Assembly: GCA_021818105.1 (NCBI GenBank)
Contig: JAKAFB010000011.1
Location: 1-64,000 of the forward strand
Source: Acidobacteriota bacterium
GTDB taxonomy: Bacteria > Acidobacteriota > Terriglobia > Terriglobales > Acidobacteriaceae
DNA: 64,000 nt
Reading direction: 5' to 3'
Numbering within the stretch: the first letter of the stretch is position 1; every line of letters begins with the position of its first letter. A model generated the notes under the pieces. That model was given only the letters and a program-made list of their open reading frames with translations. It had not been told where the DNA came from and did not search any database. Both the position numbers and the translations under genes were made by a program. Shown one piece after another: positions 4,007-24,216 of the stretch.

Positions 4007-5668
4007 GTGAAGTCCGCATGGATGCTGCAGTACATTCGTTGTCTCTTCGTGATTGGTTTGTACGCGACGCTGCTTTTTGCTGCGCAAACTGTTGGAGGTC
4101 AGCTTTCAGAGCCTGCCATCAGCGGTCGGACGAGTCAAACCCAAGCCACCGAGGCTGTCCAGGACTCATTGGGACGCACAACCCCGCGCGGTACAGTGAT
4201 GGGTTTCCTGAAAGCTGCGTACAACGAAAAGTACGATGTAGCTGCTCAGTACCTGGATACACGGGCTCGTGGGAAAGATGCTGCAAATCTTGCTAGGCAG
4301 CTTTTTTATGTACTGGATCGAAAACTACCTGCCAAACTTAATAACGTGAGCAACGAACCACTCGGGGCGCTCGCAGATCCCGTTGATTCACGCAGGGAGT
4401 TGATCGGCAGTGTAGTGACTGAGGGCGGGGGGGCGGACATCTATCTTGAACGTATCGATCGTCCGGGCATCGGATCAATCTGGCTGTTCTCCCGTCAAAC
4501 GCTAGCCGATATACCCAGCGTTTATCAAGAGATTAATGTCGTACAGGTGGAAAGCATCGCACCTGAATTCCTGCTGAAGAGATATTTTGGCATTGCTCTG
4601 TTTGGATGGTGCTATTTTCTATTATTCCTACCGTTACTCTATCTCTTCCTAAGTGTAGTCAATCGTGTAGTTGGAGCTGGGATAGGCTATTTACTCAGAC
4701 ATTGGGCCCACCGGCCAGAGGTGCGGAACCCTTGTATTCTTCCTCATCCCGTACGCCTTCTTATTCTTTCAGGAACTATCTATCTCACGCTGTCCAAAGT
4801 CAGTGTTTCACTTCTGGCTCGTCAGGCAGCTTCGACAATTGCACATTTAGTTCTGATTGTGGCGTTTGTATGGGCTATGTTTTATGTGAACGCAAAATGT
4901 GAGCTGTATTTGAAGCGACGGATCGAAAGTCATGGAAGAATTAGCTCAACCGCAATAATTCGTCCAGCTCGGCGTGTGATGGACCTGATTGCAGTAATTG
5001 TGGGTCTAATGTTTCTGCTTCACAGCCTTGGAATCAATCCATCAGCAACACTAGCAGGTCTGGGAGTGGGAGGTATTGCAGTAGCCCTCGCTGCTCAAAA
5101 GACCTTGGAAAACGTGATTGGCGGGGCGTCTCTGATCATGGATGACGCTGTTCGCGTTGGAGACTTCTTCAGGATAGGAGATGTAGTAGGGACAGTCGAA
5201 GTCATCGGGCTTCGCTCCATCCAGCTTCGCACTCTTGACCGTACAACGGTTACGATCCCAAACGGTCAGGTGGCTACTATGACGCTCGAGAACTACTCTG
5301 CACGTGACCAATTCTGGCTACATCAATTATTTTGCCTGGATTATCAGACCGCACCCTCCAGGTTGGACGCGGCTCTTAGCGAGGCCAGATCCTTGCTGAC
5401 AAGAGACTCCAGGGTGTTTCCTGCTACAGCACGTATCCGACTAATCCGCTTTGCAGAGTCCAGTCTGGAACTGGAAGTCTTCGCATATGTTGCAGCTCAA
5501 GACTGGAACAATTTTCTTGAAATTCAGGAAGACCTCTTAATGAAAATCAGAGAAGTAGTCCAGTCTACGGGTGTCGAGATTGGTTATCCCGCTCGCACAG
5601 TCTATCTGAAGAATAGGATCGGTGCGGAAAATACACCGCTCAGGGCGGTGGGTGAAGGAAAAGAATAA
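4007..5668 (+). CDS. MscS-family mechanosensitive ion channel
   Basis: A 553-residue membrane protein. It starts at GTG with AGGTGG about 8 bases upstream, followed by a signal-like hydrophobic stretch. A periplasmic N-terminal domain of about 180 residues precedes a group of transmembrane helices from roughly residue 195 to 345. The pore helix and MscS core follow (LAGLGVGGIAVALAAQKTLE, then NVIGGASLIMDDAVRVGD, about residues 348-385). The beta domain carries VTIPNGQVATMTLENYSARD, the most conserved MscS motif. Such channels open when membrane tension rises and release solutes on hypo-osmotic shock. The long N-terminal domain is larger than that of E. coli MscS. The next gene starts 3 bases after the stop, so the two are probably co-transcribed. 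Confidence 0.93.
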   Translation: MKSAWMLQYIRCLFVIGLYATLLFAAQTVGGQLSEPAISGRTSQTQATEAVQDSLGRTTPRGTVMGFLKAAYNEKYDVAAQYLDTRARGKDAANLARQLFYVLDRKLPAKLNNVSNEPLGALADPVDSRRELIGSVVTEGGGADIYLERIDRPGIGSIWLFSRQTLADIPSVYQEINVVQVESIAPEFLLKRYFGIALFGWCYFLLFLPLLYLFLSVVNRVVGAGIGYLLRHWAHRPEVRNPCILPHPVRLLILSGTIYLTLSKVSVSLLARQAASTIAHLVLIVAFVWAMFYVNAKCELYLKRRIESHGRISSTAIIRPARRVMDLIAVIVGLMFLLHSLGINPSATLAGLGVGGIAVALAAQKTLENVIGGASLIMDDAVRVGDFFRIGDVVGTVEVIGLRSIQLRTLDRTTVTIPNGQVATMTLENYSARDQFWLHQLFCLDYQTAPSRLDAALSEARSLLTRDSRVFPATARIRLIRFAESSLELEVFAYVAAQDWNNFLEIQEDLLMKIREVVQSTGVEIGYPARTVYLKNRIGAENTPLRAVGEGKE

Positions 5669-7079: not shown

Positions 7080-8633
7080 ATGTCCTCGAAATTGGAATAT
7101 GAGGTTTCGATGCAGGAGCACGGTTGCACATCAATCGTAAACAAGAGAGGACCCGCGCTTTACCCGTCTCTCTATCAAATCAATACTCGCGTGCTGATGC
7201 AAGAACTCAGCAGTGCACTCGGGCGGCCAGCGACGCTGGACGACATTCCCGACAAGGATCTCGATCATTTCGCGAAACTAGGTTTCGATTGGGTATGGCT
7301 CCTTGGAGTATGGCAGACAGGCGAAGCAGGTTGCAGGGTATCGAAAGAAAACGAGCAGTGGCAACGCGAGTTTCGGGACTTTCTCCCTGATTTCACCGAG
7401 GCTGATGTGTGCGGATCATGTTTTGCAGTCACCAAGTATGAGGTTCACACCGATCTTGGTGGAAATGCGGCTCTCGATCGCCTCTGTGATCGAATTCATG
7501 CGCACGGGATGAAACTGCTTCTTGACTTCGTGCCAAACCACACTGCACCTGACCATGAATGGGTGAGTCAGCATCCGGAATATTACATGCATGGCACTGA
7601 GGCAAAGCTGCGTAATGAACCGCAAAACTATATTCAGATGGAAAATTCTAGTGGACCTCATATATTCGCCTACGGACGTGACCCCTATTTCGATGGCTGG
7701 CCTGACACCATTCAATTAAATTATGCGGAGCCATCCTTACAACAAACAATGATCGGTGAACTCAAGAAGATAGCGAGACACTGTGACGGAGTTCGCTGCG
7801 ACATGGCAATGCTGATCCTTCCCGAGGTATTCGAGCGGACATGGGGACTGAGACCAGAGCCATTCTGGCCCCGAGCGATTCAGTGTGTGCGGGACGAGAA
7901 CCCTGGTTTCCTGTTCATGGCCGAAGTGTATTGGGATCTTGAATGGATGCTGCAGCAGCAAGGCTTCAACTACACTTATGACAAGCGGTTATATGATCGT
8001 CTTCGCAAAGGATATGCGCGATCAGTTCGTGATCACTTCCGTGCTGATATGGGCTTCCAGAGCAAGTTGGTGCGTTTCCTCGAGAACCATGACGAACCTC
8101 GCGCAGCGGCTGTGTTTCCGCCTGACCAGCATCGCGCTTCTGCAATTCTGACGTTTCTATGCTCTGGTCTTCGGTTCTTCCACGATGGGCAATTCGAGGG
8201 GAGAAAGAAGAAGGTGCCTGTCCACCTATGCCGGCGACCTGATGAGCCGGTCGATGTCGCCTTAAGTGAGTTCTACAGTAGCCTGCTTACATGCGTAAAC
8301 CTACCAGTCATTCGCAACGGTACGTGGTCACTGCTCGAGTGTTCTGCGGCATGGGAAGGGAACTGGACATCCGATTGCTTTATCTGCTTCGCATGGACAG
8401 ACCAATCACATGACAGAGTCATAGTGGTCGTCAACTATGCACCCAATCAGAGCCAGTGCTATCTCCAAATTCCCTTCGAAGATCTCCGGGGCCTATCTGT
8501 GCGCTTTGAAGACATCATGGGACACGATGTCTATGAGCGAGACGGAGAGGAGTTGTCAGAACGTGGACTTTATCTGGATATTGCTGGTTGGGGATACAAC
8601 GTTTTCCGAGTGACCACACCATCGAGGCGCTAG
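7080..8633 (+). CDS. Glycoside hydrolase family 13 (alpha-amylase family) protein
   Basis: A 517-residue protein from the ATG at 7080, preceded by GGGCGGGTGGTGATCC; the frame is open further upstream but the extra residues look non-coding. The four GH13 regions are present: DFVPNH; GVRCDMAM with the nucleophile Asp near residue 241; FMAEVYWD with the acid/base Glu near 282; and FLENHDEP with the stabilising Asp near 338. A TIM barrel with a short C-terminal beta domain is expected. There is no signal peptide, so it probably acts in the cytoplasm on alpha-glucans or oligosaccharides. Substrate cannot be told from sequence; alpha-amylase, alpha-glucosidase and trehalose-type enzymes share these motifs. 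Confidence 0.9.
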   Translation: MSSKLEYEVSMQEHGCTSIVNKRGPALYPSLYQINTRVLMQELSSALGRPATLDDIPDKDLDHFAKLGFDWVWLLGVWQTGEAGCRVSKENEQWQREFRDFLPDFTEADVCGSCFAVTKYEVHTDLGGNAALDRLCDRIHAHGMKLLLDFVPNHTAPDHEWVSQHPEYYMHGTEAKLRNEPQNYIQMENSSGPHIFAYGRDPYFDGWPDTIQLNYAEPSLQQTMIGELKKIARHCDGVRCDMAMLILPEVFERTWGLRPEPFWPRAIQCVRDENPGFLFMAEVYWDLEWMLQQQGFNYTYDKRLYDRLRKGYARSVRDHFRADMGFQSKLVRFLENHDEPRAAAVFPPDQHRASAILTFLCSGLRFFHDGQFEGRKKKVPVHLCRRPDEPVDVALSEFYSSLLTCVNLPVIRNGTWSLLECSAAWEGNWTSDCFICFAWTDQSHDRVIVVVNYAPNQSQCYLQIPFEDLRGLSVRFEDIMGHDVYERDGEELSERGLYLDIAGWGYNVFRVTTPSRR

Positions 8634-8865
8634 ATGTATAGTCAAAATCCTCTCTCAATATAGAGTTGTTCGCGTGCCTATGCGCAATTGTTTCCCATCA
8701 TAGGGCTTATCTATTGCTAGCAGCGATGTGCCACATAGTTGTTAGACTCTACACATTTATTGATTTCCCCAGGGATCACGCTGCCCTATTTCCTCGATGA
8801 GAATTGCAGCAATAGCTAGCATTTTTGGCAGTTCGTGTTGACGGTACGGAAGAATTACTCTGCGC

Positions 8866-9660
8866 ATGAACGAAGACTACGTCTCCATTCTTGAGAGTCA
8901 AGAAGACAAGTTCATGGGAACGCGTAGCTGTTATCGCATGAGGATACGCATCGCTAATCTGAAATGGTTCGAACGCGCTTTGCTCATTGTTGGACTGATC
9001 CTTGTTGGGATCTCAGTAACTACTTATGTGAGTGGAAGGATCTATTCGCAATGGGAAGTCGCGAGGTTCCACGCTGGTATTGTGTATCCCGCCGGCCAGG
9101 AATCGAGTTGGTTGGTGAATAAGAAGCCTGTTGACTTTAGTCTATGGTCACGCCAACGAATCGAGGCTTATGAGGCTACGTACAACGAACGTATAGACAA
9201 ACCTCTCGCTCTTCTGAAGATGGATAAACTCCGTTTGGAAGTACCTGTTTATGAGGGCACCGATGATCTAGTTTTAAACCGCGGTTTGGGGAGAATTGTT
9301 GGTACTGCCCATCTGGGAGAATCGGGAAACGTTGGGATTGCGGGCCATCGTGATGGATTCTTTCGGGGCCTAAAGGATGTCAGTGTTGGTGACACATTGG
9401 AGATTGAGACTGTTACTGGTACGCAGACATACATCATTGATTGGATCAGGGTAGTTGGCAGAGAAGATGTGAGCGTACTGAAGAACGAGTCGGGATCCGC
9501 ATTGACCCTGGTTACGTGCTATCCGTTTTACTTCGTCGGGAGTGCCCCAAAGAGATACATTGTCCACGCATCTCTTAGGGACAAATACAACACGCAGAAC
9601 GAGCCTGCTAAGGCAAGTCTGCAAGCCACTGCTTCAGGAACCAAGGAGAATACACAATGA
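8866..9660 (+). CDS. Class D-like sortase (transpeptidase)
   Basis: A 264-residue membrane-anchored enzyme. One transmembrane helix lies near residues 35-55 (ALLIVGLILVGISVTTYVSG), with the catalytic domain outside the inner membrane. Sortase landmarks are DKLRLEVPVYEGTDDLVLNR, GNVGIAGHRDGFFRGL with catalytic His161, TLVTCYPFYFVGSAPKRYIV with catalytic Cys218 and Arg230. Sortases cut LPXTG-type signals between Thr and Gly and join the product to an amino acceptor. Starts at 8914 or 8938 are also possible. Its stop codon overlaps the start of the next gene (ATGA), whose product ends in LPATG, so enzyme and substrate are made together. Sortases are mainly Gram-positive enzymes, so the acceptor in this diderm is unknown. 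Confidence 0.92.
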   Translation: MNEDYVSILESQEDKFMGTRSCYRMRIRIANLKWFERALLIVGLILVGISVTTYVSGRIYSQWEVARFHAGIVYPAGQESSWLVNKKPVDFSLWSRQRIEAYEATYNERIDKPLALLKMDKLRLEVPVYEGTDDLVLNRGLGRIVGTAHLGESGNVGIAGHRDGFFRGLKDVSVGDTLEIETVTGTQTYIIDWIRVVGREDVSVLKNESGSALTLVTCYPFYFVGSAPKRYIVHASLRDKYNTQNEPAKASLQATASGTKENTQ

Positions 9661-10439
9661 ACGCAAGAACAGGCTGTATGCGAGCGGTGATGATTCTTGC
9701 AGTCGGGGCGATTGGACTCGCCTTTGCCGTCAAGATGAGTGCACAGGTTCAAACAACAACACAAGAGCAGGCAGGAGAGTCTGCTCAAGAAGTCAAGGTC
9801 GAGCGTGCGGAAGTCATTGCCGTCTCTGGGAACGATCTCGTGCTCAAGATGGAAGATGGCTCAATCCGGCATATTGCAAATGTGCCAGAGAGTGCCCGCG
9901 CCACAGTGGAAGGCAGGGAGGTTGGGATTCATGAATTGAAGCCTGGCATGCACCTGCAGAGGACGATCGTCACGACCACAACTCCTAAAGTGATTGTGAC
10001 CACGAAGCACGTGACAGGAAAGGTCTGGCATGTAAATCCACCACTTAGCGTAATTCTGACCTTGGAAAATGGCGAGAATCAATCCTTCGAAATTCCCAAG
10101 GGCCAGAAATTCATGGTCAATGGACAAGAGGTTGATGCATGGGGTTTGAAAAAGGGAATGAAGGTAACAGCAACCAAGGTTGTCGAGGAGCCGGTCACTG
10201 AGGTAGAGGCAAAGGCCAGCATCACAGGGCATATGCCTCCACCGCCTCCTGCGCCGCCAGCTGGTGAACCTATTCTCATTGCAACTGGCGAGCCTACGCC
10301 CGCTCCAGCCACTACCGAGGTCGCTGAACTGCCTGCGACAGGAAGCAATCTGCCATTGATCGGGCTCATCGGCGTAATGATTCTTGTGGGATCTTTTGCA
10401 ATTCGTGCATTTCGGAAGGTATCGCATAAGGTGGTCTGA
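9657..10439 (+). CDS. LPATG-tailed sortase substrate with two repeated domains
   Basis: A 260-residue secreted protein, translationally coupled to the sortase by a 4-base ATGA overlap, with AAGGAGA 8 bases upstream. It has a signal peptide (ending near SAQVQ), two similar domains of about 60 residues (one with LVLKMEDGSIRHIANVP...LKPGM, the other with VILTLENGENQSFEIPKGQ...LKKGM), and a Pro-rich linker (PPPPPAPPAGE). The sorting signal is LPATG at residues 225-229, then a hydrophobic helix and the basic tail RAFRKVSHKVV. This is a complete cell-wall-sorting-type signal. The domain function is not recognised; the two copies look like a duplicated small beta fold. Being the only visible LPXTG protein in the window, it is probably the dedicated substrate. 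Confidence 0.88.
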   Translation: MNARTGCMRAVMILAVGAIGLAFAVKMSAQVQTTTQEQAGESAQEVKVERAEVIAVSGNDLVLKMEDGSIRHIANVPESARATVEGREVGIHELKPGMHLQRTIVTTTTPKVIVTTKHVTGKVWHVNPPLSVILTLENGENQSFEIPKGQKFMVNGQEVDAWGLKKGMKVTATKVVEEPVTEVEAKASITGHMPPPPPAPPAGEPILIATGEPTPAPATTEVAELPATGSNLPLIGLIGVMILVGSFAIRAFRKVSHKVV

Positions 10440-10480
10440 TGCGACGCGCTAGTGCGAACCGTGGATGGCAGTAGTAGCGT

Positions 10481-10511
10481 CGGGAAGGCCGTTTCTGTCC
10501 CGGTCTTCCCG
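10481..10511 (+). terminator. Candidate terminator after the sortase operon
   Basis: CGGGAAGGCC (10481-10490) can pair with GGTCTTCCCG (10502-10511) over 10 bp with one G-U pair and an 11-base loop. It sits about 40 bases after the LPATG gene. No T-tract follows, so termination efficiency is doubtful. Confidence 0.45.
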
Positions 10512-10901
10512 GCGTTAAGCCATGGTCTTGTAAAGAGATAACGGATATGTATTGAAATCGGCCCTGTCGCAACGAGCAGCTATTTAGTTATATGCATAAA
10601 CACAAATAATGATTTACATCTAGCAATGTGACCCATGTCACATGACATGCATGCTACTAAATATGTGAAAGATAATTACAGGAATGTCATGTTGACTTCA
10701 TTACGGAAATGTCACTCCTTATGGAGTGGAATCAGGCTACACTTAGTCAACACCAGAGATGGGGGTTTAGGAAAGACGTGCATTTAAGTATTGCACTGCA
10801 GGCTGTATAGGCAAGTGGTTAATTGAGTAGCGGCTGCGGAAGCACCCTGAATATGAAACGGAGTGGTCTACTTAGTTTCGATTCGGGGCACTAGGCTGAG
10901 T
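10512..10901. other. Regulatory spacer upstream of the histidine kinase
   Basis: About 390 AT-rich bases without a gene separate the sortase operon from the kinase operon. They contain a perfect CRP-type palindrome at 10627-10642 and ATGTCA boxes at 10635, 10684 and 10709, plus the inverted copy TGACAT at 10643. This is probably the promoter region of the kinase and regulator genes. Confidence 0.5.
10627..10642. promoter_or_regulatory. CRP/FNR-type operator
   Basis: The sequence TGTGACCCATGTCACA matches the CRP consensus TGTGA-N6-TCACA exactly, flanked by AA and TG. It lies about 260 bases before the kinase start. Proteins of the CRP/FNR superfamily are the expected binders. No such regulator gene is in the window. 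Confidence 0.55.
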
Positions 10902-13157
10902 ATGATGCAGGTTACGTGTGCGATGAAAAGTAAAGAAACCAATCATAGGAAATTTACGCAAAGCATAAAGCCGATACATGCAAGGCATCCTGTGGGGCGG
11001 AATTCTCGGCGAGAACATCAGTTGGAATCCCTACTTGAATCGACTACCGAGAGTTTTGGAACCTGGGATATAGCATCAGGGCAGATATGCATCTCGGATG
11101 CATGGCTGGCGTCCCTGGGATATTTGGCCACCGATTCACGCAAGGGGCATGAGCATGTCAAGAGCTTGCTTCATCCTGAAGACAAGGCAGGGTATGAATC
11201 TGCATTGAAGTCACATTTGGCCGGGAAGACTCCGATGCTGGATTGCGAATTCAGATTGCGCACAAAAGACGGTCGCTACAAGTGGTATCAGATGCGTGGC
11301 AAGGTTGCACGAAGGGATAGAACGGGTACTCCACTGCAACTATCTGGCATGGTTTTTGATATTCATGCACGAAAGGCGAGAGAAGAAGAACTGGCAAAGT
11401 CTCGCGACCAGTTGTTGTCGTTGATCCAATCATCCCCGGATTCAATGGCCCTTGTTGATCCTCTGCGATTCGGTCTGGTTACCTTTAACAAGGCATTTGC
11501 GGAAGTGATTTTCAGTGCCCATGGAATTCACCCGATGTCAGGGATGCCTCCGGAGGAGATTGCCCCTGAGGCGGCAGGGTGGTGGAACGAGTTCTACAGA
11601 GAGGTCGTGGAGAACGGGAACGCAAGACGGTGCTGTGAGTTTCCATCTATACGCAAAACCCTGCAATTCTTCGCTAGTAGCATAGTTCGTAATGGCCAGA
11701 TCCAGGCAATATGCATCTTCGGACATGACATTACGAATCGTAAAGAAATGGAGACAGCCTTACGATTGTCAGAGGAGAAGTTTCAAAAAGTATTTCGGGA
11801 AAGCCCTTTGGCAATTGCGCTTACGAGCATTCGAGATCATCGCTACATTGAGGTAAATGATGCCTTCATTGAGGCAACCGGCTATGGTCGTGATGAGATC
11901 ATCGGTAAGACTCCACTCGATATAGGGCTTTGGGTTAAACCAGAGCAGCGCATGGAAATCATCAAGGATATTATCTGGAACGGGGATGTTCGTAATCGCG
12001 AGATCCTTTATCGCACCAAAAATGGCGAGGTCCGTGAGGCTAGCGGATCGGCCGCCCTCATCAATATCAATGGTGAACCGTGCATGATCGGAGTAAGCCT
12101 GGATATCACTGATCGCAAACGCGCCATTAAAGCTGTGCAGGAGAGTGAGGAGCGTCTTCGCATCGCAATCGAATCTGGGCACATGTATTCGTTCGAGTGG
12201 GATGTTGCGACTGATTTGGTCCAGTGGTCAGGGCAGAGCGTAAATACGCTTTACCTCCTGGACGATAATATGGCGCACACCAAACACGCGTTGATCGAAA
12301 GAATTCAACCCGAGTATCGGCAGAAATACATAAATTGCCTTAATTCACTCACGCCAGAAAAGCCGGATTACAAGGCTGTCTTCCGCATTCGGCATCGGAA
12401 CGGACGAACAGTATGGCTAGAGGAATCTGGAAGAGCTGTTTTTGATCCAGAAGGAACACTACTAAAAGTCATCGGGATTACATCGGACGTTACAGAGGGC
12501 CGCGAGTCAGAGCGTATGCTTCGGGAACTAAGCAGACGTTTGATTACGACACAAGAGGACGAGCGCCGGCGAATTGCGAGAGAGCTCCACGACCATATTG
12601 GACAAGAAGCTGCCTTGCTATGCGTTCTTGCCCAACGCATTGTTTCTGATGAAGCGGATCCGGAACACATGCCGCGTTCGGACGTTCACGATCTGTACAG
12701 AAGGATCAAGGCACTGGGAACAGATATCAGTAACTTGTCTCATCGTCTGCACTCGTCGGAGCTTGCCTTTCTTGGGTTGGCAGTTGCAGCTGAACGGCTG
12801 TGCCGCGATTTCGCTGAGCAGTATCGAATCGACATTGATTATCAGGTAAAGCCCCTGCCAGCAGCGCTTGATCGCTCGAAGTCTCTATGCATGTACAGGG
12901 TTTTGCAAGAAGCGCTTCAAAATGTAGGGAAGCACAGCCATGCTACACAGGTTATCGTTGAGCTCCAAGCAATCGGAGAAGAGGTGATTCTTGTAGTGCG
13001 GGACAATGGTGAGGGGTTCGACGCAGAGAAGACAGATTATGAAGCAGGACTCGGCCTTCTGAGTATGCGCGAAAGGTTGAATCTGGTGGGAGGACGATTT
13101 GCGATTGCATCGCGGCCAGGGGCGGGAACAAAGCTGACTGCGTGTGTGGCAGCCTAA
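10902..13157 (+). CDS. Multi-PAS sensor histidine kinase, NarX/DesK type (HisKA_3)
   Basis: About 751 residues from the ATG at 10902; GTG at 10863 and ATG at 10923 are alternatives. There is no membrane segment, so it is a cytoplasmic sensor. Four PAS-type domains come in series (near residues 45-145, 155-270, 285-400 and 415-530); one contains EKFQKVFRESPLAIALTSIR and another LRIAIESGHMYSFEWD. A HisKA_3 dimerisation domain follows, ERRRIARELHDHIGQEAALL, with the phospho-accepting His near 563. The C-terminal ATPase has LQEALQNVGKHSHATQV (N box), VRDNGEGFD (G1) and GLGLLSMRERLNLVGG (G2). The signal is unknown. It almost certainly phosphorylates the NarL-type regulator encoded next, and possibly the receiver-only protein after that. 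Confidence 0.93.
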   Translation: MMQVTCAMKSKETNHRKFTQSIKPIHARHPVGRNSRREHQLESLLESTTESFGTWDIASGQICISDAWLASLGYLATDSRKGHEHVKSLLHPEDKAGYESALKSHLAGKTPMLDCEFRLRTKDGRYKWYQMRGKVARRDRTGTPLQLSGMVFDIHARKAREEELAKSRDQLLSLIQSSPDSMALVDPLRFGLVTFNKAFAEVIFSAHGIHPMSGMPPEEIAPEAAGWWNEFYREVVENGNARRCCEFPSIRKTLQFFASSIVRNGQIQAICIFGHDITNRKEMETALRLSEEKFQKVFRESPLAIALTSIRDHRYIEVNDAFIEATGYGRDEIIGKTPLDIGLWVKPEQRMEIIKDIIWNGDVRNREILYRTKNGEVREASGSAALININGEPCMIGVSLDITDRKRAIKAVQESEERLRIAIESGHMYSFEWDVATDLVQWSGQSVNTLYLLDDNMAHTKHALIERIQPEYRQKYINCLNSLTPEKPDYKAVFRIRHRNGRTVWLEESGRAVFDPEGTLLKVIGITSDVTEGRESERMLRELSRRLITTQEDERRRIARELHDHIGQEAALLCVLAQRIVSDEADPEHMPRSDVHDLYRRIKALGTDISNLSHRLHSSELAFLGLAVAAERLCRDFAEQYRIDIDYQVKPLPAALDRSKSLCMYRVLQEALQNVGKHSHATQVIVELQAIGEEVILVVRDNGEGFDAEKTDYEAGLGLLSMRERLNLVGGRFAIASRPGAGTKLTACVAA

Positions 13158-13297: not shown

Positions 13298-13945
13298 ATG
13301 ATGGACCATCGAACGCGTGTAATCATTGCTGACGACCACAAGCTACTTGCTGAGGCGTGCAAGAATCTTCTCGAACCAGAATTCAACGTAGTCGCATTGG
13401 TTTGTGATGGGCGAGAATTATTGAAGGCTGCGTCGGAACTGCGGCCTGATGTGGTGGTTCTGGATATATCCATGCCGCAGCTAAACGGGCTGGATGCAGG
13501 CGGTATGCTCAAGGACAGAAACCGGGCAATCAAACTCGTCTACCTGACCATGTCACTTGGCGCCGATGTGGCGGCAGAGGCTTTCAGGCGTGGCGCATCG
13601 GGGTATGTCCTAAAGCAGTGCAGCGCCGAAGAGCTGCAGGTTGCTGTCCGTCGCGTTGTACGCGGAGAATCCTATCTCTCGCCCCTAATCACCAGGGACA
13701 CAGTTGAATTTCTTCTGAGATCAGGCGCTACTTATCACGAGGAGAAACACATCTCCAGCCGTCAGCGGGAAGTTCTGCAATTGCTGGCAGAAGGGAAATC
13801 CATGAAGGAGATTGCGTGTATTCTTCAACTCAGGCCTGGAACTGTGGCATTTCATAAGTACAGGATTATGGATATTCTAGGGGCGAGGAATAGTGCTTCA
13901 CTGATTGAATATGCATTAAGGCATCACATGATCTCGCCGCAATAG
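13298..13945 (+). CDS. NarL/FixJ-family response regulator
   Basis: 215 residues from the ATG at 13298, which has GAGGAG 6 bases upstream; the frame is open earlier but without a signal for initiation. The receiver domain has the acidic pair ADDHKL, the phospho-acceptor Asp56 in VVVLDISMPQLNG and the switch Lys in GYVLKQ. The C-terminal LuxR-type helix-turn-helix starts at SSRQREVLQLLAEGKSMKEI and continues to VAFHKYRIMDIL, so it binds DNA. It follows the HisKA_3 kinase by about 140 bases, which is the standard partner arrangement. Target genes cannot be told. Confidence 0.93.
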   Translation: MMDHRTRVIIADDHKLLAEACKNLLEPEFNVVALVCDGRELLKAASELRPDVVVLDISMPQLNGLDAGGMLKDRNRAIKLVYLTMSLGADVAAEAFRRGASGYVLKQCSAEELQVAVRRVVRGESYLSPLITRDTVEFLLRSGATYHEEKHISSRQREVLQLLAEGKSMKEIACILQLRPGTVAFHKYRIMDILGARNSASLIEYALRHHMISPQ

Positions 13946-14056: not shown

Positions 14057-14482
14057 GTGACTGAGCGGCATCGCGTGCTAATAGCGGATGATAATCCAGA
14101 GATGCTGGAAACCGTAAAGCGCATACTCCAAAACGATTATCAGGTGGTTGCAGCGCTGGAAGATGCTCATGCCGTCGTGGCAGAGGTGCTGAGATTGAAG
14201 CCTGATGTCGTCGTGCTTGACATTTCCATGCCAGAAATGAACGGGTTCGAAGTTGTACGTCTGTTGAGGTCTGAACTCTGCCGCTCGAAGATCGTATTTC
14301 TTACGGTCCACGAGGAGTTGGATTTTATCCGGGCTGCATTTGATGCTGGAGCGTCTGGTTATGTTTTCAAGGCGCGAATGAATTCAGACCTTCGCACTGC
14401 AATTGAGACAGTACTGCACGATAAGGTCTTTATTCCCAATGCGCCGATTGGTCAATATAGCCCAGATGTCATCGGCCTATAA
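14057..14482 (+). CDS. Receiver-only response regulator
   Basis: 141 residues starting at GTG. It contains a full receiver domain: ADDNPEM acidic patch, Asp55 in VVVLDISMPEMNGF, the Thr of VFLTVHEE and Lys in GYVFKAR. The protein ends about 20 residues after the receiver fold with no DNA-binding or enzymatic domain. Its sequence resembles the receiver of the preceding regulator, so it may derive from a duplication that lost its helix-turn-helix. Such proteins act as phosphate sinks, relay partners or protein-binding switches. It probably shares the upstream kinase. Confidence 0.9.
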   Translation: MTERHRVLIADDNPEMLETVKRILQNDYQVVAALEDAHAVVAEVLRLKPDVVVLDISMPEMNGFEVVRLLRSELCRSKIVFLTVHEELDFIRAAFDAGASGYVFKARMNSDLRTAIETVLHDKVFIPNAPIGQYSPDVIGL

Positions 14483-21866: not shown

Positions 21867-24206
21867 TTAAGTGGGGGTGCGCAGAAGCAAATAGCCCCCG
21901 GTGAGGCCAAAAAGCACGACGGGGGCCCATGCGGCGAGAGCGGCAGGAAGATAGTTTACGCTTCCCATTGCTCCAAAGAGCCCATCGATAACCCAATAGG
22001 CAAGGGCAACAGCAATAGCCACCGCAACTCCCGTCAGTGAACCTCGGCGGCCCATGGACAGCGCAAAGGGTATCGCCAGCACTGCCATCACAACGGCGAT
22101 GAGTGGATATGCCAGTTTGTGCCACAGCGCAACGCGCAGCCGCATCGTGTCAAATCCGCTCTCCCGAAGGTCATTGATGTAGTGTTTCAGTTGCTCAAAA
22201 TTCATTTCTTGCGACTGTAGGCTTTCCTTCTTGAAGTAGCCGGGTTCTTCGTGAATTTCGGCAAAGGATGTGCTTTTGAATTCCGTGAATCGCGTCACAC
22301 TCGCGCCGTCGAACTCGCGCTCCCATCCATTTTGAAAGCGCCATGCGTGCGCATCACTATCCCAGAATGCGCGCGCGGCAAAAATCCTACGTGAAAGCGA
22401 AAAAGTTGATGGGTCAAATTCAAAGACTGAGAGATTGGCGAACTCGTTTCTGTCGGGATCGAAGAACTGGTAATAGAAGATATGAGCAGGCTCGCCCGGA
22501 CGAGTCTGACCAAAGATCCACTTCTGCTCAGGATGCAAAAATGTTTGCGGCGGACGGCCCTTGATGGTACTTCGCAAGGCTTCCTGCCTGCGATTTGCTT
22601 GCGGCAAATAAAACTCGTCGAAAAGGAAAAGACTCACTGTCAGTATCGCGGCGATACAGACAATGGGAACAATCAGCCTGTAGAGACTGATCCCCGTAGC
22701 CTTCATGGCTACGATTTCGCTGTTTCTATTGAGAACACCAAACGTCACCAGTCCGGCGATTAGCACGGCCAACGGAGTGATCTGATAAATCATGCTTGGT
22801 GTGAGATTCAGCAGGTAATCCCCAACCGTAATGAGCGAAATTCGATTGCGTAGAATGTCACCAACCAGCTCAAAAAAAGTGAAGACTAGCATTAACATCA
22901 CAAAGCTTACGAGAACCAGCAGGAATGTTCCAAGAAATTCACGGATGACGTAACCATCCAGAATGCGCGGGAAGCTTCCGCGGGACGGACTCCTTGGGCC
23001 TTTGGCCTGCACTCGCGAGATCAGCCGCGTAAAGTATCCTGTCCGCTGTCTGACCGTTGGGCGCATCGTCGAGATTCGTGCAGAGAGGGCAGTAAGTGCG
23101 TTCAAGAAGCGCCCCCCACTGGCCATCTGCCACAGCAGGAAGATGCCGACCGCGGCGAACAGAATGTTCGCAAGCCAGACCCCTAGGAATGGCGGTAGCT
23201 TATTTTGCTTGCTGAGGGCGATCCCGGTGTACGAAAGAATGTAGTAAAGCAAGACAAGCAAAATTGTAAAAACAATGCCGGAACTCTTGCCGCCACGGCG
23301 CGAGACAAGCCCTAAGGGTACGCCCACAAGCATCAATACGAGACAGGCAGTTGGATATGCAAATCTTGTGTGCAGTTCGATCAGAAAGCGCTGGGCATCG
23401 GCGCCATGCGTGCGCTTTTCAAGCGCAGACATGGGCAAGGCGTAGATAGCGGTATCCATGCGCCCGAGGTGCACGTCGCTTTGCTGATTAAGGGTCAAGG
23501 GAAGATCTGTGCTTGTGAAGGTGGAGATGTTGTATTGTTGTGACTCTCCGGCTGAAGTTTCGTGTTCTGACCCGTCACGCAAGCGCATTAGCAACACCTG
23601 GGACGAATCGCTTACCACCGTCGCTGATGCGGCAGTTGTAATGAGTGGGGTGCTCGGGTTGCTGACGTCAGCCATGAAGACCTGACGCCAGTTGGCGGCT
23701 CCTGTTCCTCCGCGTACATCTTGGATGTATAAGACTCGATTGCGAAAGTCCTCATAAAAGACGCGCGGCTGAATCTCAAAGGAGGCTTGCGATGTCTCCA
23801 ATTCATGCTGCATGTCCAGAATCGCCTGGTTGGCGCGAGGAGCAACGTAGGCTGAGTTCAATAGCCCAAGCGCCGTGCCGGAAACTGCTACGATGGAGGC
23901 CACCCAGACGAAATATCCAATCCCGAGCCCAGATGCGCGCATCGCAATCACTTCACTATCCGCCGCGAGTCGGCTCAGTCCCAGAAGAATTCCAACCAGA
24001 ACGGCCATGGGAATCGTGACCCGGAACAAATTCGGGAGGGTGAATAGAAATACCTCCATCACATTTGTAAAAGTGGAACTGTTGCGGACCACGGCCTCGA
24101 GGATTCGCGGGAGCTGCGGCATGAAGAGAATGAAGGTGAAAAGCGCGCAGCCGATCAGTGTGTGCGACAGGATTTCGCCGAGAATGTAGCGGGTCAGGAT
24201 ACGCAC
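21867..24206 (-). CDS. Fused LptF-LptG permease of the LPS export machine
   Basis: About 780 residues, twice the size of LptF or LptG. The first half is an LptF-like YjgP/YjgQ unit (RYILGEILSHTLIGCALFTF, MAVLVGILLGLSRLAADSEV, IAMRASGLG). The second half, from about residue 410, is a second such unit (LDGYVIREFLGTFLLVLVSF, FGVLNRNSEIVAMKATGISL). Each half has a periplasmic jellyroll segment. Normally two separate proteins pair with the LptB ATPase to extract LPS from the inner membrane. The GTG at 24206 has GAGAG 7 bases upstream and is preferred over the TTG at 24212. It starts 10 bases after copA ends. A stop-free linker joins the halves, so this is a true fusion. Confidence 0.9.
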   Translation of the reverse strand: MRILTRYILGEILSHTLIGCALFTFILFMPQLPRILEAVVRNSSTFTNVMEVFLFTLPNLFRVTIPMAVLVGILLGLSRLAADSEVIAMRASGLGIGYFVWVASIVAVSGTALGLLNSAYVAPRANQAILDMQHELETSQASFEIQPRVFYEDFRNRVLYIQDVRGGTGAANWRQVFMADVSNPSTPLITTAASATVVSDSSQVLLMRLRDGSEHETSAGESQQYNISTFTSTDLPLTLNQQSDVHLGRMDTAIYALPMSALEKRTHGADAQRFLIELHTRFAYPTACLVLMLVGVPLGLVSRRGGKSSGIVFTILLVLLYYILSYTGIALSKQNKLPPFLGVWLANILFAAVGIFLLWQMASGGRFLNALTALSARISTMRPTVRQRTGYFTRLISRVQAKGPRSPSRGSFPRILDGYVIREFLGTFLLVLVSFVMLMLVFTFFELVGDILRNRISLITVGDYLLNLTPSMIYQITPLAVLIAGLVTFGVLNRNSEIVAMKATGISLYRLIVPIVCIAAILTVSLFLFDEFYLPQANRRQEALRSTIKGRPPQTFLHPEQKWIFGQTRPGEPAHIFYYQFFDPDRNEFANLSVFEFDPSTFSLSRRIFAARAFWDSDAHAWRFQNGWEREFDGASVTRFTEFKSTSFAEIHEEPGYFKKESLQSQEMNFEQLKHYINDLRESGFDTMRLRVALWHKLAYPLIAVVMAVLAIPFALSMGRRGSLTGVAVAIAVALAYWVIDGLFGAMGSVNYLPAALAAWAPVVLFGLTGGYLLLRTPT

Positions 24207-24216
24207 AGGCAAGCTC

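Follow-up and report, generated by a model that had tools for sequence, protein, structure and literature searches.

Sortases are textbook enzymes of Gram-positive bacteria, and the presence of a sortase gene beside the gene for a putative sortase substrate in a 64,000-nucleotide stretch of acidobacterial DNA (the whole stretch that was analyzed, hereafter the window) raises the question of whether the two form a dedicated pair and, if so, to what the enzyme would join its substrate in a diderm cell. The initial annotation of the locus had described the host as a diderm and the two genes as an acidobacterial dedicated system. The diderm description was upheld by the window itself, which encodes an LptF/LptG protein and a protein of the Omp85 superfamily. 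Within the same stretch, a 781-aa open frame on the minus strand (21867-24212) has two LptF/LptG (PF03739) stretches and resembles an LptF-LptG fusion.

The sortase and its LPATG substrate

The sortase gene (8866..9660, plus strand) encodes a protein of 264 aa with an N-terminal membrane helix, and its product matched PF04203 at 86.5 bits (gathering score 26.6), which places it in the sortase superfamily. A scan of a genome collection confirmed 112 relatives, of which the best 80 loci were retained, and a sortase alignment (A3, n = 80) was assembled from the window sortase, 78 of the 80 retained loci and the locus L015; L048 and L079 were omitted because the start of the contig cuts their sortases. 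The residues that had been singled out as catalytic when the locus was first annotated, His161 (codon 9346-9348), Cys218 (9517-9519) and Arg230 (9553-9555), were invariant across all 80 aligned sortases, and the identification of a sortase with these three residues was thereby confirmed.

Based on its sequence, we classify the enzyme as class D-like. The best NCBIfam model for it was NF058671, at 131.7 bits and just below the cut-off of 140, and the other class D model, NF033746, was also missed (121.4 bits versus a cut-off of 165); it is because these curated class D cut-offs were missed that we use the name class D-like and not class D. All 80 aligned sortases matched both class D models at E <= 1e-5, and the best E-values among them were 1.1e-43 for class D, 3.8e-29 for class E and 1.9e-26 for class GN. 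For the AlphaFold2 model of the sortase (pLDDT 84.7), the top Foldseek matches were two entries labelled sortase D, 4d70 and then 2ln7, with entries of classes A, C and E close behind. By sequence, the nearest solved structures were 2ln7 first and 4d70 second, and we take 2ln7 to be B. anthracis SrtC, which we count as a class D enzyme.

The substrate gene (9657..10439, plus strand; 260 aa; AlphaFold2 pLDDT 80.4) begins within the sortase gene, such that its ATG (9657-9659) and the sortase stop codon TGA (9658-9660) share the four bases ATGA. Its product has a predicted Sec signal peptide of approximately residues 1-29 (9657..9743), with cleavage near MSA-QV; this part of the first description was retained as a prediction, made by eye and by a hydrophobicity rule, and in 70 aligned substrates position 29 is Ala in 94% and position 30 is Gln in 84%. 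There follow, all on the plus strand, two beta modules at approximately residues 45-112 (copy 1, 9789..9992) and 116-185 (copy 2, 10002..10211), a Pro-rich linker whose limits were set by eye (10233..10328), the LPATG sorting motif at residues 225-229 (10329..10343), and a membrane helix with a basic C-terminal tail, RKVSHKVV (10350..10436; residues 232-259 are helical in the AlphaFold2 model). The window tail passed TIGR01167 at 17.9 bits (cut-off 15.9), and with this match, the modelled helix and the sequence itself, the ATGA overlap, the position of LPATG, the helix and the basic tail all stand as originally reported. There are 11 Pro within the 40 residues preceding the motif, equal to the median count for 71 substrates, and in the 71 tails the P and T of the motif are invariant and the residue after LPxT[G/A] is Ser in 62.

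The two beta modules are, as judged by profile comparison (hhalign, 99.4% for copy 1 versus copy 2), homologous to each other. A single copy of the module is present in the substrates of the L033 group (97.7% and 97.2%) and likewise in those of the gammaproteobacterial group, which matched copy 1 at 94.9% and copy 2 at 85.1%. The substrates of the L024 type showed no relation to the module (0.1%), and the L024-type sortases form one clade of 10 rows (support 99/98) with the sortase of L019, a locus whose substrate has two modules. Since this clade joins L024-type and two-module substrates, it appears to have swapped the substrate ectodomain and retained the tail. The substrate alignment A2 comprises 39 of the 71 substrates, picked as two-module types, and omits L029, L053, L058, L068, L071 and L083, which were two-module in a later grouping. 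One further substrate, a 445-aa protein of L096 (6750-8327, minus strand), falls outside the clusters of the other 70 and is encoded on the strand opposite its sortase. The window substrate as a whole matched no Pfam family at E <= 0.001. The search for a known fold was also abandoned. The best Foldseek match had E = 1.6e-3 and so none reached E <= 0.001, with the linker and tail barely covered; the three leading hits of a further structure comparison were small beta domains aligned over 43-74 residues with Z of about 5, and were distrusted.

To evaluate the pair as a dedicated one, the initial annotation had proposed a search of the genome for other LPXTG proteins and had named many further substrates as the result that would speak against it. 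Such substrates were not found in the window genome, an assembly of 3,635,135 bases in 136 contigs that is 97.9% complete and from which some sequence may be missing. One sortase was found in it, and searches with E up to 10 gave eight matches to TIGR01167, of which the LPATG substrate was the one above the cut-off and seven were below, and a sole match, again the LPATG substrate, to a model of the 71 related tails. Neither model would detect a substrate with a very different tail. Moreover, some tails are missed by the tail model, as seen for the genome G053, which was scored as having a sortase and no tail, yet has an LPATG tail gene (L162, 3868-4602) beside the sortase position. A scan of 8600-10900 for a sigma-70 promoter found none, a negative result of little weight in this phylum.

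Recurrence of the pair and of its linked regulators

By itself the TIGR01167 match is weak evidence for a sorting tail, because 9 of the 14 control genomes also have matches above its cut-off. The argument against a chance tail, as we read the sequences, is recurrence near related sortases: an [L/M]PxT[G/A] tail protein was found near the sortase in 69 of the 80 loci (the best 80 of 112 relatives). Geometry was measured for 67 of these 69 loci and for the window, with start codons picked by rule. The substrate gene was downstream on the same strand in 56 pairs, including that of the window, and 15 of the 56 had the 4-base overlap; in the remaining measured pairs it was upstream (4) or on the opposite strand (8). 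There were 11 loci among the same 80 without an adjacent substrate, and a search of their genomes identified a tail match elsewhere in seven (one of them weak) and no tail match genome-wide in four. The records are mostly of Acidobacteriota, the others being Gammaproteobacteria and its orders, one Betaproteobacteria, one Gemmatimonadales and one Myxococcaceae, although single taxon names may be wrong because many of the records are metagenome bins. Named isolates that carry such pairs are found in Edaphobacter, Granulicella and Acidobacterium records; they include Edaphobacter modestus, E. aggregans, Granulicella sp. L46 and Acidobacterium sp. S8, in which the motif is LPKTG.

The joint presence of sortase and tail was then considered at the level of whole genomes, in a scan whose initial step scored no more than 14 candidates per genome for the sortase and 39 for the tail. 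In 60 relatives, a sortase match was present in 21, a tail match in 19 and both in 17 (Fisher p 2e-9), leaving 4 of the 21 sortase genomes without a tail match and 2 of the 19 tail genomes without a sortase match; these counts retain a fragmentary sortase match in G017, which covers 23 positions and contains a stop, and tail matches in G024 (tail cut by the contig end) and G025 (weak and with a stop). In a phylum sample of 197 genomes (sortase E <= 1e-10, tail E <= 0.001), 40 had a sortase and 30 had a tail, and all 30 tail genomes were among the 40 (Fisher p 3e-27); the tail model was trained on tails near sortases, and the sample may include genomes used to build the models, as it certainly does G000. 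There were no tail matches in the 157 genomes that lacked a sortase match, and 10 of the 40 sortase-bearing genomes had no tail match. Counted from match coordinates, the tail was <= 3 kb from the sortase match in 28 of the 30 tail-bearing genomes. Exactly one tail was present in 22 of these 30 genomes and several, up to four, in the other eight, and therefore one substrate per sortase is no universal rule. In G050 four tail matches were identified versus two sortase matches (L153-L156), which indicates that some substrates are unlinked. Taking these comparisons of sequence together, we regard the sortase-substrate unit as a recurrent dedicated pair. The proposal of an acidobacterial dedicated system is supported by the finding of one sortase and one tail in the window genome, by the phylum-wide co-occurrence, and by the naming of the nearest sortase record, that of L018, as Acidobacteria.

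In the sortase tree the window sortase groups with that of L018 with support of 100/98, and the next shortest tree path leads to L022, whose record bears the name Betaproteobacteria. Three genomes of the window's own genus have sortases (L148-L150) that fall elsewhere in the tree. The tree recovered 10 of the 14 sortases sought from fetched stretches, and in it L015 and L096 are mislabelled 'none', though each has a tail protein (that of L015 being of the L024 type). Among the 60 relatives, the full ectodomain was found in the window genome only; the others had the tail region only, except for a partial match in G013. Based on the placement of the pair in the tree and on this distribution of the ectodomain, the pair is patchy within its genus, whether by loss or by transfer. 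The G013 match (G013:C54:733-936) covers positions 16-81 of the substrate model within a 409-aa open frame, in a genome with no sortase match.

Downstream of the pair are two-component genes that were absent from the initial annotation. These include the following: a PAS-domain sensor histidine kinase (10863..13157, plus strand; PAS_3, HATPase_c) whose start codon is uncertain; a LuxR/NarL-type response regulator (13298..13945, plus strand; Response_reg, GerE), for which the frame is open from 13199 and the ATG at 13298 was chosen as the start; and a second receiver-domain protein (14057..14482, plus strand; Response_reg) whose Pfam matches include no output domain. At L018, a kinase, a LuxR-type regulator and a lone receiver protein occur in the same order as in the window, and the window kinase and second receiver protein are 57% and 66% identical, respectively, to the L018 proteins at the equivalent places. 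Regulators 36-78% identical to that of the window are located <= 4.5 kb from the sortase in 10 other loci, seven at >= 49.5% identity and three at 36-46%. The best regulator match in the 59 other relatives was 46% (E <= 1e-40, with up to 51 candidates scored per genome), and so in 7 of the 10 loci the sortase-linked regulator is nearer to that of the window than is any match in those relatives. Counting the window, any two-component gene was found <= 4.5 kb away in 19 of 79 loci and one of the REC + LuxR type in 11 of 79; in the other 60 of the 79, where some contigs end sooner, none was found within that distance. It is probable, judging from these identities and linkages, that the LuxR-type regulator is cognate to the pair in that part of the tree to which the window belongs.

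Upstream of the pair the window has a gene for an MscS-like channel (4007-5668), and members of the same similarity group occur near the pair in L079, L091 and L094, which are gammaproteobacterial; L155, which has a tail and no flagged sortase, also contains one. These four loci were too few for the linkage to be used. In L155, the tail gene (4494-5090) adjoins a channel-like gene.

Known systems and the acceptor of the substrate

The window locus can be compared with several described systems. The basI-srtC-sctR-sctS locus of B. anthracis is similar to it in that the sortase is of the nearest solved kind, its gene is accompanied by genes for a substrate and a two-component system, and the motif is of the form LPxT[A/G] (PMC3297441). 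In contrast, the window has a diderm host, a Pfam-less ectodomain and a different gene order, and the likeness is one of layout, motif and sortase kind. A second comparison is with the LPxTATN-specific SrtD (NF058671/NF058670), as NF058671 is the best model of the window sortase. The tail of the gammaproteobacterial relative L079 matched NF058670 weakly (19.7 bits, cut-off 32), and the type 2 acidobacterial sortase of L153 passes NF058671 at 144.2. LPXTATN has been described in Bacillus cellulosilyticus, a Gram-positive organism that has four sortases and 27 proteins with the anchor domain (PMC3617157), whereas one tail was found in the window genome and LPxT[G/A] is mostly followed by Ser. 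The type 2 acidobacterial loci themselves (L148-L153) share with the window related sortases and LPxT[G/A] tails, but the ectodomain of their substrates is a different one and a VWA gene separates the substrate gene from that of the sortase. The four of these that were tested (L149, L151, L152 and L153) showed TIGR03436, and L148 and L150 cluster with them. L148-L150 come from the window's own genus.

Our favored reading, to which we give a probability of roughly 0.6, is that of a dedicated diderm pair whose LPATG protein is joined to the meso-diaminopimelate (m-Dpm) of lipid II under linked two-component control. In such a system Sec would export the substrate, and the predicted C-terminal helix would hold it in the inner membrane. 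Cys218 would then cut LPATG between Thr and Gly to form a thioester, presumably with assistance from His161 and Arg230, given the conservation of these residues and the behavior of class D enzymes. An amine would resolve this thioester, the likeliest candidate being that on the side chain of m-Dpm in lipid II, on the assumption that the host peptidoglycan contains m-Dpm. This acceptor is the best supported one, by analogy, because B. anthracis SrtC, which is encoded beside a single substrate gene and two-component genes in the layout basI-srtC-sctR-sctS, cleaves LPNTA between Thr and Ala and uses m-Dpm as the nucleophile (PMC3297441). In C. difficile, too, a sortase substrate, CD2831, is linked to diaminopimelate (PMC4591827). 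As a consequence of such a reaction, the two small beta modules would end up in the periplasm, on peptidoglycan, via a short Pro-rich stalk. Since part of the tree retains the linkage, it is probable that the histidine kinase and the LuxR-type regulator beside the pair turn it on in response to some condition of the envelope.

Several other products of the sortase can be envisaged. One that we consider unlikely is that the enzyme joins the substrate to the amine of a membrane lipid, for example phosphatidylethanolamine, to give a C-terminally lipid-anchored periplasmic protein. We know of no sortase of this fold that uses a lipid amine, although a diderm, having other means of fixing proteins to peptidoglycan, might use its sortase in this way. 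Archaeosortase substrates are lipid-anchored in haloarchaea (PMC7157517), but the acceptor of B. anthracis SrtC is m-Dpm (PMC3297441). It is also quite improbable, in our estimation, that the pairs represent a separate widespread diderm class, in Acidobacteriota and some Gammaproteobacteria, in which a single sortase lineage exchanges substrate ectodomains and keeps the tail motif, and the product is placed on a membrane lipid or an outer-membrane partner instead of peptidoglycan. The same interpretation would also cover the single records named Gemmatimonadales and Myxococcaceae. Polymerization of the substrate head to tail, or its joining to the lysine of another protein as in sortase-built pili, has the attraction that pilus loci also pair a sortase with a substrate gene. 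However, there is no invariant Lys in the 39 aligned substrates (the best ectodomain column, at residue 166, is 82% Lys), the window genome has a sole tail found, and the class C model gave 69.7 bits versus a cut-off of 160; with no invariant lysine and the class C cut-off missed, we dropped this very unlikely alternative. There is an equally slim chance that the sortase merely hydrolyses the substrate and frees it into the periplasm once the regulator fires. A linked kinase and regulators would suit such a switch, but sortases are mainly transpeptidases and a Pro-rich stalk ahead of the motif suits a fixed end.

The initial annotation had also suggested a comparison with the proteobacterial Pds loci, and of this the logic of one sortase and one target proved common to both, while membership failed on the class D-like sortase, the non-vWA substrate and the LuxR-type regulator. 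Dedicated Gram-negative sortases are known as TIGR03784, or class GN (PMC3237569). That class (TIGR03784/TIGR03787/TIGR03788) is also a dedicated pair with an adjacent gene and a single target, as described in the same source, and it has a regulator model of its own, TIGR03787. These parallels would favor membership in the class GN system, in which the target is a vWA protein with LPXTG, a reading that we nevertheless regard as exceedingly improbable and dropped because the sortase and regulator scores contradict it. The window sortase reached 75.6 bits with TIGR03784 versus a cut-off of 158.25, no TIGR03787 regulator above 335.7 was found in the genome (the best, at 129.4, is on a different contig), and the second receiver protein of the locus scored 24.3 against TIGR03787. 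The substrate is of another family, with no match to a vWA family (Pfam, E <= 0.001) and with TIGR03788 absent at E <= 0.1 among the matches listed (the best 25 of 33), and the linked regulator is of the LuxR type.

A familiar machine in a diderm setting

Among the literature matches listed (in part the best 20 of 1,273, 20 of 23 and 20 of 410), there was no description of an acidobacterial dedicated sortase. A row in a 2011 table, 'Sortase 6, 1, 6.0' (PMC3174227), refers, as we take it, to six sortase genes in Candidatus Solibacter usitatus, and sortases in the phylum had therefore been annotated before. According to a passage in a 2006 essay, Gram-negative sortase homologues were otherwise not known beyond a small proteobacterial group and one Chloroflexus protein (PMC1586193). 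Since the scores lie far below the class GN cut-offs and just below those of class D, we view the units identified here as class D-like dedicated diderm pairs. What is new is the duplicated Pfam-less beta module, the LuxR-type regulator whose place near the sortase is retained over part of the tree, and the differing substrate ectodomains inside one sortase clade. This is a known kind of machine, probably with familiar chemistry, in a little-described diderm setting.

A recurrent sortase with an adjacent substrate in diderms provides a simple system for the role of a sortase in a periplasm with thin peptidoglycan. As isolates with such pairs exist in the Edaphobacter, Granulicella and Acidobacterium records, the question of the acceptor is directly testable, and the linked regulator may reveal the envelope condition that demands an anchored protein.
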